A DNA stretch of 64,000 nt from a virus, in the IMG/VR virus record IMGVR_UViG_3300050343_000215, positions 1 to 64,000 of that record; one strand, 5' to 3'. The notes beneath the pieces were generated by a model. That model was not told the origin of the DNA. It searched no databases and was given only the letters and a program-made list of their open reading frames with translations. Position numbers and translations under genes: made by a program. Positions 29,669 through 36,962 of the stretch are shown one piece after another (the first letter of the stretch is position 1; every line of letters begins with the position of its first letter).

Positions 29669-30971
29669 TTTTTTTGAAAGGTTGCTTGAATAAGATATTT
29701 AAGATTTGCTGACCAATCGGTCTCTCAGTAGGAATAACAATCAAAGGTTCACCCACCTGCTGCAGATCAACTATAGTAGGTTTGTTTACAATGAATTGAG
29801 CAAGGTCATCAGTCTTGTCATTGACATTATAGTAGATATTATGTTTTACGTCAAATAATTGAGGTAAAATAATAGCACCAGTAGAATATGCATCTCTAAA
29901 GAAGTTTCCGCCCTCGCCTCTCTTTCGTTCATTCAGTCCACCTGTCTCATATTTCATAAAGTATTCTGCACCACCAACAAATTCTGCCGCTGCTTCTGAC
30001 ATTGGTCCTTCAGATTCAAAGTCATCTAACACTTGCTGAGCAACAGCAGCATTACCATTACCAAATTTCTCAACTAATAATTGCATTCCATTTGGTTTAG
30101 CAGCAATCTCAAAAATTTCTTTCTTAGTGATGCCTATATCACCATACACACTAGCGGCGGCGGTGTCAGCACTAGTCCCATAAATTGCAGCAGAATATGG
30201 CGAGAACTGTTCTTTCTCAGTAATAACAACAGATAGTGGTTGATTTCTTTTTTTAGCTCTATTCAACATAACCTGGAATGCATCAGCAACATTTTGTGCT
30301 CCAGAAGCTTCAAGTGTGGCAAGATGAGCAGCAGCAACTAAATCTGCACCAGATGCTTTAGCATCTTTTATACTTGCAGCATCTAATGGGTCAGCAGCAC
30401 CGAAAGAACCCGCTGCAGCTCCTGCTAGCACTGCTAGAAAACCTGTTAAATCTTCTTGATTGATGTTTAGATCAGTCAATTTAGTTTTAGCTTCTTCTTC
30501 CTTCTCCCCAGTTTTTTCTAATAATTTTTCAGTAAGTTTTAATTTTCTATTTTGAATTTCACGCTCAAGTAATTTGTTATAAACAATTTTATGATAATCA
30601 ACCCTTCTAACATTATTCAACAACTTAGTCAGATTAGCAAGAAGATTATTAAATCTCTCTAGCAGATAGTTCCAATCGTCCACATCCTCATCAGATACTA
30701 GAAGATTAAATTGATTTTTAGGCACTAGATAATGTTTCTTATCTTGATCAAACTCCAACATCCATGGCGGAATGATTGGCACAAACATGCTCGCAAAGTT
30801 CTTCAACTCCTGCTTAAACTTTGCAGCAGGAATTATCTTGGTAAGTGCCTTGATCTTAACACTTTTACCAGATCCAACCATCGGCGTTTCCGCCGTCATT
30901 TTTTCATAAGTTAGGTTTTTCCTTGACTGCTCCAACTGGAACGGGGATATGCCCTGACGTGGTTTAATCAT
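29586..30971 (-). CDS. Tail protein with SleB-like cell-wall hydrolase domain
   Basis: The 461-residue protein has a helical, charged N-part (residues 60-160), then an Ala-rich segment and a domain at about 220-330: HLATLEASGAQNVADAFQVM, LNRAKKR, EKEQFSPYSAAIYG. This matches the SleB/Hydrolase_2 pattern (A.VILNR......QFS....G), a family that cleaves the peptidoglycan glycan strand. Its place in the hub cluster suggests a tail-associated hydrolase for DNA entry. Confidence 0.6.
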   Translation of the reverse strand: MIKPRQGISPFQLEQSRKNLTYEKMTAETPMVGSGKSVKIKALTKIIPAAKFKQELKNFASMFVPIIPPWMLEFDQDKKHYLVPKNQFNLLVSDEDVDDWNYLLERFNNLLANLTKLLNNVRRVDYHKIVYNKLLEREIQNRKLKLTEKLLEKTGEKEEEAKTKLTDLNINQEDLTGFLAVLAGAAAGSFGAADPLDAASIKDAKASGADLVAAAHLATLEASGAQNVADAFQVMLNRAKKRNQPLSVVITEKEQFSPYSAAIYGTSADTAAASVYGDIGITKKEIFEIAAKPNGMQLLVEKFGNGNAAVAQQVLDDFESEGPMSEAAAEFVGGAEYFMKYETGGLNERKRGEGGNFFRDAYSTGAIILPQLFDVKHNIYYNVNDKTDDLAQFIVNKPTIVDLQQVGEPLIVIPTERPIGQQILNILFKQPFKKIEEIFERNDKRAGVKSTDTYSKQYHFY

Positions 30972-32953
30972 GACTCAGTATAATAGACAGTTGGTTGATA
31001 GAATGCGACGACCTCACCACGAACATCACCAAATGAGAATTGTTCTTCTGTCTCATTAGCAACTTGCATTTGCTCATTGCCTGGTATATTATTTAACGAA
31101 GATTGATTACCAGGACTTTGGAACATTTTTTTAATGGTTAGATCAGGAACAAATGGAATTCCAGAACCCACCTTACCAGGACCAACTTTACCCTCACCAA
31201 CAATCTTAGGACCAACAATTTGTGGAGGTCCAGATAATAAAAGCATCTTCTCAATCTTCTCTCTAGTAGGAAGTCCTCTACCATTTTGTTCGGATGCTTC
31301 CCTAAGATTTCCCTCTTCTATAGCTTTACTAAAGTCAGGAGCACTATACCAGAAGTATGGTTGATTAAATCCATACAATATGACACCAGCCTGCTGTTCG
31401 GGTGTGAAGTATTTAAATTTTGGAAAATATTTTGTGTTTAAGAAATTATCATGATAGTCTCTAACTTGAAATTCAAGTAACTGATCAGCTTCCTTTTTGG
31501 TCATTGTCATATTAGGAAATACTGCTCTATTACCTTTAGTTATTTCATCAAGGAATGTGAATCCCCAACCGATAGTAGTTCTATCATTATCAACTCCAGT
31601 CTCATAAGCATGGAACACCGTATCATCAGTAATATTTTTATATCTTGGTTCTGATGGTTTCACCCACATATTTCTACCAGGAACTAATGAAGAGATTCCT
31701 TCCTCTTCCTTAATCCACTCAATACCTTTAGCAATTCCACCCTCACCCATCATATTCAGACTAAAACCAGATTGTCTCTCAACACCAAGATCATTATATC
31801 TACCATAAGGAGGATTATATAAAGGATTTAAAGATTTAATCTTCTCCTCCATCATCAACTGAGCAAAAATTGGCATTTGACTCATTGGAATAACAAATTC
31901 AGCACCAGCTTCACCGACCATCACTCTACCAACTCTTTCAATAGATCCTTCAGATCTCTGCTCCATCATTTCATCACCAGCGATCACATAATCAATGTAT
32001 GGCATGGGATTCTCTCCACCATAATCAGGTCTTACCTCAGGATGAACTTCAATATGGAAGTGAGGACCAGTAGAGAATCCAGTATTACCAGACTTACCTA
32101 ATACTTCACCAGCATCAATAGTATCTCCATCCTTCACTGCAACCTCACTGAGGTGAGCAAATCTAAACATTTTATTTAATGATGGCACCCAAGCATCTAA
32201 AAGTAATCCATAACCTACTGATGGATCATCAGCATTCTGATAACCAACATATTTAATGATAGATTTCTTTTTAAGTGCAAACATTGTCCCGACAGGAACA
32301 CCAATATCAACACCACCATGCATTTTTCCCCAACGATGACCATATGCAGAGGTTAGTTCATAACCACTAACATCAGATCCCTCTGTTTCACCTTTTGCTT
32401 TAAGTTGCCCCGCGACTGGTTGATATGGAACAATTACAATAGACTCTGCTTGATTAGAAATTCTATTTTCAAATCCTTTGGCGAGAAAGTTTGCCGCCAT
32501 AAGTCCAAGAATATTATCAGTCAAAAGTCCGCCACCAGTAGCAGGGTTAAATGAGTTGCTTAATTTATTTGTAGCAAATTTTCTGGCAGTTCTTTTGGCA
32601 CGGGAAGTTTTTTGTTTTTGATCGCTGGTCTCAAGTCCATGCAGAGATCTCTTCTGCTCAACTGCTTTCAAATAGTTTGAATGCATCTCGGAGAGAAAAT
32701 TCTCCATTGAGTCAAGATAAGTTCCCAATCTAACAAAGAATTTACTCATTGGGTTGGTAGACTTATTCTCAATAATAAGTTGCTTTACCTTCTTTTCAGG
32801 AACAACCTCAAGATTTTCTACATCATCTAACTTGAGAATTCCATCAACACTAGCAATAGCAATAGGTGTAATATTATCAGCTACAACAAAGACTTCGGAA
32901 GCAAATGCCTCCGAATCTCTCTCTATCATTTTAGTCTTTGCTTTAAACATCAA
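30968..32953 (-). CDS. Tail lysin with M23 endopeptidase and lysozyme-like domains
   Basis: The 661-residue protein has two hydrolase modules. At about 205-305 is an M23 zinc endopeptidase (WGKMHGGVDIGVPVGT, RFAHLSEVAV, TGPHFHIEVH), which cuts peptide cross-links. At about 405-560 is a T4-lysozyme-like domain (GIEWIKEEEGISSL, HAYETGVDNDRTTIGWGF, MTKKEADQLLEFQV). It overlaps its neighbours by four bases. It probably opens the cell wall during infection. Confidence 0.8.
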   Translation of the reverse strand: MMFKAKTKMIERDSEAFASEVFVVADNITPIAIASVDGILKLDDVENLEVVPEKKVKQLIIENKSTNPMSKFFVRLGTYLDSMENFLSEMHSNYLKAVEQKRSLHGLETSDQKQKTSRAKRTARKFATNKLSNSFNPATGGGLLTDNILGLMAANFLAKGFENRISNQAESIVIVPYQPVAGQLKAKGETEGSDVSGYELTSAYGHRWGKMHGGVDIGVPVGTMFALKKKSIIKYVGYQNADDPSVGYGLLLDAWVPSLNKMFRFAHLSEVAVKDGDTIDAGEVLGKSGNTGFSTGPHFHIEVHPEVRPDYGGENPMPYIDYVIAGDEMMEQRSEGSIERVGRVMVGEAGAEFVIPMSQMPIFAQLMMEEKIKSLNPLYNPPYGRYNDLGVERQSGFSLNMMGEGGIAKGIEWIKEEEGISSLVPGRNMWVKPSEPRYKNITDDTVFHAYETGVDNDRTTIGWGFTFLDEITKGNRAVFPNMTMTKKEADQLLEFQVRDYHDNFLNTKYFPKFKYFTPEQQAGVILYGFNQPYFWYSAPDFSKAIEEGNLREASEQNGRGLPTREKIEKMLLLSGPPQIVGPKIVGEGKVGPGKVGSGIPFVPDLTIKKMFQSPGNQSSLNNIPGNEQMQVANETEEQFSFGDVRGEVVAFYQPTVYYTES

Positions 32954-35340
32954 TCAATATCACTATCATGTGTAGATCTAGTAAATACACTCGTTCTCAT
33001 AAAAATATCAGGAGAATCATCACCGACAAAACTAGGTGCTTTCTTCTTACCAGGAATCTTAATATAATCAGGCGGCAGTGGTGTAATGTCTAGTTTCTGC
33101 TCATTTTTACCAGACATCATACTACCTTGAGCATTCTCAAGATTTTGTGATGGCATCGGACCCTTATATCCAGGAGCATTATAATAAGCATTGGGACCAG
33201 TAACCTGATCATACGTGGCTGTAGAAGCAGGATTAACTAATTCATTAATAATTAACTCAGCAAATAATGCAAATGGATTCAGTGCAGAAGAAGGATTGAT
33301 ACCTCTTCCTACAGCACGAACAGGTCTTTCAAATGCCTGACGAACAGCAGGAGTAGGACCAGTTTTTACCATATCAGGTGTGAATGCCTTGAAAGGATTC
33401 CATCCTTTCATTCCTGTTGCACCAGATTTAAATGCTTTATTACTTCTAGTAATTTGTCTGGCATCATCTGCCATCAAACCATCTGGTCCTCTCCATCGCG
33501 CAGTATTCTCATTAGGAACTCTAGTATTTCTACCCTTATTCCACCATCCGGCAAGACCACCATCTGCCATAGGCATAATCTTACTAGACATTCCTCTAAA
33601 ATAATTTAATGATTCACTATTATACAATTGAACATCACCATATCCACCACTTGATTTAGTTTTAATTTTTGGTATTATATCACTACCTTGTAAAAAGTCT
33701 TCTATTTTGGTTTTAGCGGCTGGTTTGTTAAGACTTTCTTGTAAACTTCTCGCATTCATATCTCTTTGAATACCTGCAGGTGCTGGTTGATCCGACAAAT
33801 TTCTAACTTGTCTTTCAATTCCTTTTTGATCTCTTTGTTTTTGGGATACTTTTCTACCAGTGCGAGTTACCTTTCCTCCACCACCTTGCATACGCGCTAA
33901 TGCTCTCTGTCTAGCAGTCATTCCTGCTCCAGGTTTCACTGGTGTAGCAATAGGTTTAGGCGCAACTGTAGTTACAGGTTTAGGAGCAGCAACAGTTGTA
34001 GCAGCAACATCATCTGCCACACCAGTGCCTGCTTTTCCTGCCTTAACAGTAATCTCAGCAACATCATCACTTAAACCAAATAATCTTTTAAGACCAGGAA
34101 CTCTAGAAACAAATGGAACTCCAAGTCTTCTAACGGTGTTTGCGATTGCAGGTGCTTTTGCGGCACCCTGTTGTAATGCACCACCGCCACTCATCATCAT
34201 GACAGTTTCTAATGCAAATTCTAAATCCTTACTGATAGGAAGACCAGTAACTTCAGCTAATGATTTAGGATTAGTAAATCCATCCAACATTGTCTGTAAG
34301 GGATTTACTGCTGGAGGTGGTTCTGAAATTACTGGTGATACTGGTGAGTATTCAGTTTGTTCACCATTAATTTCTTCATTAAGTTGTTTGAGTGCTTCCT
34401 TTGGTGTGAGTGCAGGAGCAGCTGCCTGAGATGCTGCATCAAATTCACCACTGCGTAAAAACTCTTCCGTTTGACCATTAGAATTTGAAAAAGCTAATGG
34501 TGTAGTTGCATCTGCAGATTCATTACTAGCTACCCCTGGATTTAATAAAGGTCCAAAAAGAAACGGTAGGAGTTTTAAAATATCTGGGAACGCAAACCCA
34601 GGTTCAAATTCTGGTTCTTCTTTCTTAGGAGGAATAAGAACACCGGGTGGATTAGGTTGCAGAGGAGGTTTAACCTTAGTCCCTTCGGCAGCAGGATTTA
34701 GAGATGGCTTTGGATTTTTGCTTGGTACAGGAGCGGTGCCAGGGGATCCGCCGGGTCCTCTACCACCGCCACGGCGACCGCCACCAAAAAATGGAAATCC
34801 ACCACCACCAGGCAGTTTAGGTTTCTTAGATCCACCGCCCATGGCGTCAGGATTTTCAAAATCAACAGTCTTATCTAATAGATACTCTTCAAATGTATTT
34901 TGATATAACTCTCTCTTACGCTCAAATAATTCTTTCTCTGTGAGAATCTGTACTTTCTGAAGTTTGACAACATCCTTCATCAACTTTTCAGTTGCTGCCA
35001 TCTTAGCTTCAATCGCCTTCAGATGCCCCTGGATAGTCTTATTCTTTACAGGGGGGATCTTAATATTTTCAATTTTAGGCAGATCCAGAGTCGCAGCAGC
35101 AGGCATCTCTGCCATCCCAACAACCTGATCAGGAGTAACAGGAGGATTGACTGCCTTTACAACAATCTTAGGATCTGTACTGGGGTCTAACCCAGGATTG
35201 CCAACCTTAGGTGGACCCTGTTGAGCAGCAGGTTGACCCTGTTGAGCAGCAGCAGGTTGCTGTTTATTATTAGCAGCAGGTTGCTGACCAGCAGCTGGCT
35301 GATTATTATTAGGTGGTTGATTTGCTGCGGGTACTGCCAT
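32950..35340 (-). CDS. Large tail-cluster structural protein, 796 residues
   Basis: The N-terminus is a low-complexity Q/N/A/P stretch (NNNQPAAGQQPAANNKQQPA). A coiled-coil-like segment follows at about 95-150 (KAIEAKMAATEKLMKDVVKL), then a glycine-rich stretch and long helical or disordered parts. It lies immediately after the gp26 frameshift extension, where lambda-type phages keep the tape measure gene. A tape-measure or hub-assembly role is possible but unproven. Confidence 0.5.
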   Translation of the reverse strand: MAVPAANQPPNNNQPAAGQQPAANNKQQPAAAQQGQPAAQQGPPKVGNPGLDPSTDPKIVVKAVNPPVTPDQVVGMAEMPAAATLDLPKIENIKIPPVKNKTIQGHLKAIEAKMAATEKLMKDVVKLQKVQILTEKELFERKRELYQNTFEEYLLDKTVDFENPDAMGGGSKKPKLPGGGGFPFFGGGRRGGGRGPGGSPGTAPVPSKNPKPSLNPAAEGTKVKPPLQPNPPGVLIPPKKEEPEFEPGFAFPDILKLLPFLFGPLLNPGVASNESADATTPLAFSNSNGQTEEFLRSGEFDAASQAAAPALTPKEALKQLNEEINGEQTEYSPVSPVISEPPPAVNPLQTMLDGFTNPKSLAEVTGLPISKDLEFALETVMMMSGGGALQQGAAKAPAIANTVRRLGVPFVSRVPGLKRLFGLSDDVAEITVKAGKAGTGVADDVAATTVAAPKPVTTVAPKPIATPVKPGAGMTARQRALARMQGGGGKVTRTGRKVSQKQRDQKGIERQVRNLSDQPAPAGIQRDMNARSLQESLNKPAAKTKIEDFLQGSDIIPKIKTKSSGGYGDVQLYNSESLNYFRGMSSKIMPMADGGLAGWWNKGRNTRVPNENTARWRGPDGLMADDARQITRSNKAFKSGATGMKGWNPFKAFTPDMVKTGPTPAVRQAFERPVRAVGRGINPSSALNPFALFAELIINELVNPASTATYDQVTGPNAYYNAPGYKGPMPSQNLENAQGSMMSGKNEQKLDITPLPPDYIKIPGKKKAPSFVGDDSPDIFMRTSVFTRSTHDSDID

Positions 35341-35522
35341 TACTGTTGTGCTGCTCTACGTGCGTTTTCTTTTTCAATAAAATCAACTAATAAACTCACA
35401 TAGACATCCCGTTCCCACGGCATCATATTTTCTATCTCTGTCAAACTATATTTATGATGCTGCATGAGATTAAAATTTAGTCGGAAATAGTTTTCCAGAT
35501 TATTCTGAAAAACCGCTATGCG
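35340..35522 (-). CDS. Predicted -1 frameshift extension of gp26 (60 codons)
   Basis: Reading in the -1 frame from the end of gp26 gives RIAVFQNNLENYFRLNFNLM and then QHHKYSLTEIENMMPWERDV, ending with a TAA that overlaps the ATG at 35340. The gp26 end contains overlapping slippery heptamers A-AAT-TTT and T-TTT-TTC (35522-35531). The segment resembles the C-terminal part of tail assembly chaperones made by frameshifting in many phages. A separate 41-residue protein from ATG 35465 is the alternative. Confidence 0.65.
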   Translation of the reverse strand, partial: RIAVFQNNLENYFRLNFNLMQHHKYSLTEIENMMPWERDVYVSLLVDFIEKENARRAAQQ

Positions 35523-36229
35523 AAAAAATTTGCTAATCCCTCAATTGTGACATCAGATTTCACACCCGTCTTAGGATTAGTTACCTTTACCGTATGAGTA
35601 AGTCTAGGCATAGTTGAAAAGAATGACTGAACTTTCTGATACTGCTTAGAATTTAGTTGCTCAACAAACTCTTCAATTTCTTTCTTAGTAGAATCTGCTA
35701 CCTCCCATGTCTCTTCATCATTGTAGATAGTATCAATACATTCAACAGCATATTCAAAAGTGCTGTCAATAAGACTTTTCTCGTCATCGGGTTTCTTTTC
35801 CATGATGTATTTCATCGTAGGATACTTCATTTTAATAAAGTAACCATTCTCAAGATCAATCGTATCACTATGTTCTTTAGACTTAACTACCTGAATATCA
35901 TCAATATTGATCTCAACCTCTGCCTGTGTCTCACCATCATCAGGACAGGTGATGGAAAACTCAAGGATCTCGCCAACAGACTTGGCACGAACGTTGAGGA
36001 AGATATACTCAACATCAAATGTAGAAAGAGTATCTAAATCAATCTTAGTTTGTACGCAATTTTCAATGATTTGAATAATAGCACTGGTAACTTCATCTTG
36101 GCTTTCAGACTCCAATGCAAGAAGAAGGATTTTTTCTTCTCTAACTACAAATGGTCTGTATTTTACTTTTTTTCCTGTAGATGGAATTTTCAGTTCATGG
36201 ACAGGGGTGTTAATCTGGGGTAATGACAT
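35516..36229 (-). CDS. gp26: gp26 baseplate hub assembly protein
   Basis: The 237-residue protein starts MSLPQINTPVHELKIPSTGK and continues KVKYRPFVVREEKILLLALE, a close match to the T4 gp26 opening (...SGKKVKFRPFTVREEK...). The rest is mixed alpha/beta with acidic stretches. T4 gp26 acts in building the baseplate hub. The gene ends GLANFFA at a run of T that could allow a -1 frameshift. Confidence 0.85.
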   Translation of the reverse strand: MSLPQINTPVHELKIPSTGKKVKYRPFVVREEKILLLALESESQDEVTSAIIQIIENCVQTKIDLDTLSTFDVEYIFLNVRAKSVGEILEFSITCPDDGETQAEVEINIDDIQVVKSKEHSDTIDLENGYFIKMKYPTMKYIMEKKPDDEKSLIDSTFEYAVECIDTIYNDEETWEVADSTKKEIEEFVEQLNSKQYQKVQSFFSTMPRLTHTVKVTNPKTGVKSDVTIEGLANFFA

Positions 36230-36243
36230 AGTTCAAAAAATAA

Positions 36244-36924
36244 TTAGAATTCTGCTCCTTTTGTATCGTAAAAGATTACGACATGTTTTTCATACCTAAA
36301 GGATACTCTCAATTTATTTAGTGTGCTAGCACCATACGCTAATGGCACACTCTCAATGTTATAAGGGTATACATTAATCATATCATAATAGCATGAATTA
36401 GATCCAGAAGGACCAGTTCTATCTTTATAACTTTTAGTCACAGTCATCCTAGGACAAACCATTTCATCATAATAACGTAATCCAACAGTGTTGGTTGCCA
36501 TTCTTCTTTTTTCTTTTTCTTCTGGGATAATTTCACCACCTTCGCTATTCATGCTCTGTTCAGGAAACATGCCACCCATCCATGCTTCAAAGAATTTTGA
36601 AGGGCTGAGTTGATTAGTCTGAATAAAACTCAATCGCATATCATTATAAAGTTTAGCATGAGGATATTGAATTAATCTACCTGCATATACACCATCAACT
36701 TCCTGTGTAGCAGTAAATGTTCCCGGCAATGATGCTTCATCACACAAGAACATCATATTCTCAAATGCTCCATCTCCAGAAGTCATACCAAATCCATAAT
36801 ATTGTAATCTGGTTAGAATCTCGGCATTTTTTATAGAATCAAAGCTTAACTTTACCTCATACTCGTTAGAATATGATCCACCCTTATCAACATTGAATAT
36901 CCCTCTAAGCTTAGATATAGACAT
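36244..36924 (-). CDS. gp54-like tail tube initiator / tube-type protein
   Basis: The start at 36924 (MSISKLRGIFNVDKGGSYSN) is chosen because a late promoter motif lies at 36956-36962. The 226-residue protein has a tail-tube-type fold pattern: FLCDEASLPGTFTATQEVDG near the N-terminus and YPYNIESVPLAYGASTLNKL then RVSFRYEKH near the end. T4 gp54 and gp19 share this pattern. Its position next to gp26 and gp48 favours gp54. Confidence 0.6.
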   Translation of the reverse strand: MSISKLRGIFNVDKGGSYSNEYEVKLSFDSIKNAEILTRLQYYGFGMTSGDGAFENMMFLCDEASLPGTFTATQEVDGVYAGRLIQYPHAKLYNDMRLSFIQTNQLSPSKFFEAWMGGMFPEQSMNSEGGEIIPEEKEKRRMATNTVGLRYYDEMVCPRMTVTKSYKDRTGPSGSNSCYYDMINVYPYNIESVPLAYGASTLNKLRVSFRYEKHVVIFYDTKGAEF

Positions 36925-36929
36925 TAACT

Positions 36930-36962
36930 CTAAATAGAAATACTTGTTCTTCATATATTTAT
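36930..36962. promoter_or_regulatory. Divergent late-promoter motifs
   Basis: CTAAATAG lies on the plus strand (36930-36937) before gp4 at 36961, and CATAAATA lies on the minus strand (36963-36956) before the tube-type gene at 36924. The two motifs point away from each other across about 30 bases, at the border of the plus-strand island. Confidence 0.45.

Follow-up and report, generated by a model that had tools for sequence, protein, structure and literature searches.

The short protein gp26 of a T4-like marine phage is in all likelihood extended by a −1 frameshift at the end of its gene, which would yield a gp26-gp51 fusion beside gp26 itself and hence a pair of products like G and GT of phage lambda. 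The window analyzed here, a stretch of 64,000 nucleotides, belongs to a virus record of 177,686 bases (IMGVR_UViG_3300050343_000215), and the nearest named relatives of this phage are cyanophages. What the analysis shows is the anatomy of the site, its conservation, covariation and the homology of the fusion to T4 gp51; slippage itself, which very probably takes place, and its rate are inferred.

Gene 26 and the −1 reading frame

On the minus strand of the window, gp26 (35516-36229, 237 amino acids) matches PF12322 (E 1e-72) and phrog_150 (E 5e-78) and represents the zero-frame short product, TAC-N. Its 3' end reads GAG GGA TTA GCA AAT TTT TTC GCA TAG CGG, with the stop codon TAG at 35518-35516 and the slippery heptamer T TTT TTC (35522-35528) two codons before it. 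In the −1 frame, 60 codons are open and are followed by a TAA (35342-35340) that shares a base with the start codon of the next gene (ATG at 35340) in the sequence TAATG, so that the extension, or TAC-C domain, spans 35340-35522 and the whole unit, a predicted 296-amino-acid gp26-gp51 fusion (TAC-NC), spans 35340-36229, both on the minus strand. The first-pass annotation had proposed a −1 frameshift here that makes gp26 part of a G/GT-type pair, and its coordinates, including the 60 codons and the TAATG overlap, were all right. The frameshift and the pair that it proposed are supported by the conserved heptamer, the open −1 frame and the gp51 homology described below.

That annotation had also likened the extension to the C-terminal part of a tail assembly chaperone. 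What it underestimated is that other records already carry this segment as a gene of its own, gp51. With an E value of 3e-28, the extension matches phrog_634, the family of gp51 or "baseplate hub assembly catalyst", from residue 2 of the 63-residue translation onward, and it also matches the gp26 family, phrog_150, at that family's C-terminal end. Two of its residues, L9 and F17, are invariant among 111 aligned relatives and both lie before the ATG at 35465, the start of a 41-amino-acid open reading frame that covers only part of the gp51 extension. We rejected this smaller frame as the gene because it would cut off conserved residues. The protein of 41 residues, whose production alone would have counted against a frameshift, is thus not the conserved unit.

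Conservation of the heptamer and the open frame

We gathered 113 distinct loci through protein similarity to gp26. Since the loci were chosen on that similarity only, the junction played no part in the choice, save for a few phage records retrieved by a DNA search in which it was included. In 112 of the 113 loci gp26 ends with T TTT TTN in the same phase (C in 106, A in 3 and T in 3), and the single locus that lacks the heptamer belongs to an Ackermannviridae phage. Of the 112 loci that carry the heptamer, 111 have 56-66 open codons in the −1 frame. Given a chance of ~0.008 per locus for 59 open −1 codons, an open frame in 111 of 112 lies well beyond chance. A check for stops in the −1 frame and for loss of the slippery site in homologues, proposed at first pass as a possible refutation, turned up one stop among the heptamer loci and one missing heptamer, and the proposal withstood it.

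The single stop occurs in S-SCSM1 (locus L035, about 2200-2260), where ~13 extra nucleotides follow the gp26 stop and gp51 lies in the +1 frame. This insertion means that the frameshift was truly lost there, or else that the sequence is in error. We did not accept S-SCSM1 as a counter-example, as it is one isolate with an insertion of ~13 nucleotides and the frame is intact in its relative SynMITS9220M01 (L137).

The terminal Phe-Phe codons were compared with the Phe-Phe pairs found elsewhere in gp26 (n = 114), which are written TTCTTT in 74 cases, TTTTTT in 32, TTCTTC in 6 and TTTTTC in 2. At the terminal position TTTTTC occurs in 106 loci against 2 of 114 elsewhere (Fisher p ~4e-54, a nominal value that overstates independence because the sequences are related, although the contrast holds without it). 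Codon bias therefore does not account for the terminal TTT TTC, and codon use here shows selection. The heptamer opens with the wobble position of a Ser, Asn, Ala, Asp or Gly codon, and this base is always T. Two overlapping heptamers had been suggested at the outset, and only T TTT TTN is conserved: A AAT TTT (35531-35525), which overlaps it, was rejected as a general slip site because the codon preceding T TTT TTN varies among relatives, being AGT, TCT, AAT, GCT, GAT or GGT.

Elements flanking the slip site

A Shine-Dalgarno-like AGGG lies within GAG GGA at 35538-35541 on the minus strand, 9 nucleotides upstream of the heptamer, and AGGG is found 8-9 nucleotides upstream in 105 of 112 loci. 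The conserved Glu-Gly pair is encoded as GAG GGN in 91 of 110 loci, whereas GAG makes up 31% of the Glu codons elsewhere in gp26. Of the 19 loci in which GAA instead encodes Glu, 14 have GGG as the Gly codon, as against 5 of 91 otherwise, so that AGGG is restored.

Downstream of the heptamer, after a spacer of 7 nucleotides, the minus strand of the window can form a probable stimulatory hairpin (35489-35514) with a loop of 4 nucleotides and an 11-bp stem that pairs 35514-35504 with 35499-35489 (z −2.7 against synonymous shuffles at this locus). Hairpins with a minimum free energy of −8 kcal/mol or lower occur in 79% of loci, compared with 13% of control windows. Compared with synonymously recoded versions of the −1 frame, the loci gave a mean z of −2.63, and a downstream control segment gave +0.10. 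Only weak hairpins were found in some loci, e.g., those of DSL-LC03 and HTVC008M.

The register of the stem differs among clades, and a single consensus hairpin for all relatives was rejected on that ground; covariation was for the same reason counted inside one register class. In the clade of the window, pairing of the stem is preserved in 99% of cells, by one-sided consistent changes only. Within the largest register class, whose members were picked for pairing in that register, a choice that favors a high paired percentage, one stem pair occurs as U-A (28), G-C (7) and A-U (2), and 11 double-change cells were counted against 2.3 expected in shuffles. The partner change at the covarying pair turns a Glu of gp51 into Ala or Val (LES to LAS or LVS), so the RNA pairing is kept at the expense of the protein residue.

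Proposed mechanism and alternatives

If the signal works as its parts suggest, then most ribosomes would stop at the TAG of gp26 and release the short tail assembly chaperone, TAC-N. The remaining minority, carrying Phe-tRNAs at UUU and UUC, would slip back by one base on U UUU UUC and translate the 60 codons of the −1 frame, giving the 296-amino-acid fusion, TAC-NC, as the counterpart of T4 gp51. The upstream AGGG could pair with the anti-Shine-Dalgarno sequence of 16S rRNA and very probably stimulates the slip, as very probably does the hairpin just downstream, in a dnaX-like manner. In E. coli dnaX, a Shine-Dalgarno-like element ~10 nucleotides upstream, an A AAA AAG heptamer and a downstream hairpin are combined. 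The three-part layout is common to both, whereas the dnaX gene is unrelated and its heptamer is A AAA AAG.

Production of gp51 as a separate small protein, by termination and re-initiation or from a start of its own after the gp26 stop, would agree with the records of P-SSM2, S-SCSM1, phiM12 and HTVC008M, which annotate gp51 as its own gene. It would also agree with 56 of 112 loci having, as their first start codon, an ATG at index 3 past the slip site, and with a Met at position 4 of the extension in 65 of 111 relatives (loci L019-L121), often from an ATG just past the gp26 stop; a free gp51 made by re-initiation is therefore possible in those clades. As a general account it is improbable. 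In 26 of 112 loci, including that of the window, the gp51 frame has no ATG, GTG or TTG among its first 13 codons, although this region encodes conserved protein, and in the window a start at the first in-frame ATG (35465) would remove 19 residues of the conserved region. Moreover, a separate gp51 accounts for neither the invariant T TTT TTN nor the AGGG nor the hairpin, and the T4 homologue is itself a fusion.

Less probable still is a change of frame made by RNA polymerase, slipping on the T run during transcription, instead of by the ribosome. A T6 run does form the center of the motif, and it is longer in phages of Pelagibacter and Methylophilales, but T6 is short for slippage by RNA polymerase. 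Moreover, the heptamer always has the same phase relative to the reading frame, and a slipping polymerase needs neither an upstream AGGG nor a downstream hairpin at ribosomal spacings.

Relation to T4 gp26 and gp51

The conceptual 296-amino-acid fusion of the window aligns with T4 gp51 continuously across the junction (BLASTP E 1e-5), and the gp26 and gp51 domains at the window locus are collinear with T4 gp51 by phrog_150, phrog_634 and PF12322. T4 gp51 is the product of a normal single gene and matches phrog_150 over its whole length, to position 280, including the C domain, whereas the match of T4 gp26, which is without the C domain, stops at 235. In T4 and a Karamvirus, separate genes occupy the places of 26 and 51, and the end of gp26 is without the heptamer. 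The first-pass annotation was right that T4 gp26 and gp51 come from separate genes, and it underestimated T4 gp51, which is itself a full-length fusion with N and C domains. It follows that T4 has two divergent genes for what the phage of the window would make from one gene and a frameshift. Since the fusion aligns with T4 gp51, while T4 gp26 has neither the C domain nor the slippery site, the two products of the window are best read as a pair like lambda G/GT.

T4 gp51 is required for assembly and is absent from the particle (PMC3004832), and a chaperone role for the products of the window would follow by analogy with T4 gp51 and lambda G/GT. A fold search with an AlphaFold model of gp26 (pLDDT 84) gave no significant match, with the HK97 tail assembly chaperone 2ob9 in fifth place (E 1.8), and sequence searches of solved structures with gp26 and with the extension returned nothing significant. 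The gp51 of cyanophages has been described as ~20% of the usual length and as being without the first ~200 residues (Sullivan et al., 2010, PMC3037559). It looks "truncated" because the missing N-terminal ~200 residues would come from gp26 via the frameshift.

Neighboring genes

Pairs of the G/GT type lie between the genes for the tail tube and the tape measure. The gene upstream of gp26 (36244-36954) encodes a tail tube protein. Directly downstream of gp51, a Pro/Gly/Gln-rich open reading frame of 796 amino acids (32950-35340, minus strand) had no match in Pfam or PHROGs, and its identity as a tape measure found no support in these family searches; in HTVC008M a tape-measure-like gene lies two genes downstream of gp51. 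A further open reading frame of 661 amino acids (30968-32953, minus strand) carries an M23 peptidase domain and a weak match to phage lysozyme, and is possibly a tail-tip cell-wall enzyme or part of a tape measure.

Distribution across T4-like phages

Phages Aeromonas 65, ValKK3, V05, phiWae14 and LPCS28 likewise combine T TTT TTN with an open −1 frame, as do Rhizobium AF3, Sinorhizobium phiM12, Stenotrophomonas Bhz51, Pelagibacter HTVC008M and Methylophilales Melnitz-2. By this comparison, the predicted frameshift signal is conserved across T4-like phages.

In Ackermannviridae and two related Vibrio phages (loci L041, L128, L130, L131, L132 and L134), the gp51-like frame is −1 and open and the heptamer is gone; one such junction reads ATT TTC ATT TAA. 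The gp26 stop forms a TAATG in four of these loci, which suggests re-initiation or another slip site.

Discussion

Vladimirov, Gautam and Davidson (Virology 2022, 566:9-15) are said to have recognized genes 26 and 51 as the tail assembly chaperone genes of T4-like phages, and their abstract reportedly describes frameshifting as conserved in several T4-like groups. The gene families concerned, 26 (TAC-N) and 51 (TAC-NC), are the same as those treated here, and the assignment of T4 gp51 to the long form and of T4 gp26 to the short form is reproduced by our comparisons. The principle is thus already known at the level of the class, and the window locus is a further member of it; with the T4-like chaperone scheme in print since 2022, the surprise is modest. 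To go by the title of that paper and the relevant passages of papers citing it, some T4-like phages are reported to use a short and a long gene with no frameshift (PMC10885494, PMC12846349), and poly-T −1 signals have been reported for T4-like TAC-N genes (passage of PMC12846349 citing Vladimirov et al., 2022). A literature search, which extended to works other than the full text of Vladimirov et al. (2022), found no paper on 26/51 frameshifting in cyanophages.

Among the known systems, the lambda heptamer is a different one from U UUU UUC, and the proteins of the window, likened to G/GT by analogy, belong to the gp26 and gp51 families. Lambda G/GT likewise consists of a short protein and its −1 extension, adjoining the tail tube gene (Xu, Hendrix and Duda, 2004, via PMC5009743). 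Pseudomonas phage Adele (Vandenendeviridae) also has a −1 frameshift, on a poly-T motif GTTTTT at the end of TAC-N, and its C domain was likewise mis-annotated as a separate gene; it differs in belonging to another phage family, and the passages on Adele in that paper mention neither a Shine-Dalgarno-like element nor a hairpin (PMC12846349).

Set against the title and citations of the 2022 paper and the reported content of its abstract, what is added here would be the Shine-Dalgarno-like element, the hairpin with its covariation, and a survey of wide reach. The chances seem to us about even that a complete dnaX-like signal, composed of AGGG, U UUU UUN and a hairpin whose pairing was re-formed in several registers and is maintained even at the price of changes in gp51 residues, is undescribed for the gene pair 26/51, that it is ancestral to the T4-like phages outside Tevenvirinae, and that it disappeared where a separate, full-length gene 51 took its place.

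In the public records that we examined, gp51 is either a separate gene just after gp26 or unannotated, and gp26 and gp51 are joined in none. The gp26 and gp51 annotated in the cyanophage records examined would accordingly be half-products, and the recorded oddity of the short cyanophage gp51 would be explained, its "missing" part being gp26, joined to it by frameshifting. With these elements, a defined RNA signal is now open to testing in a cyanobacterial virus.
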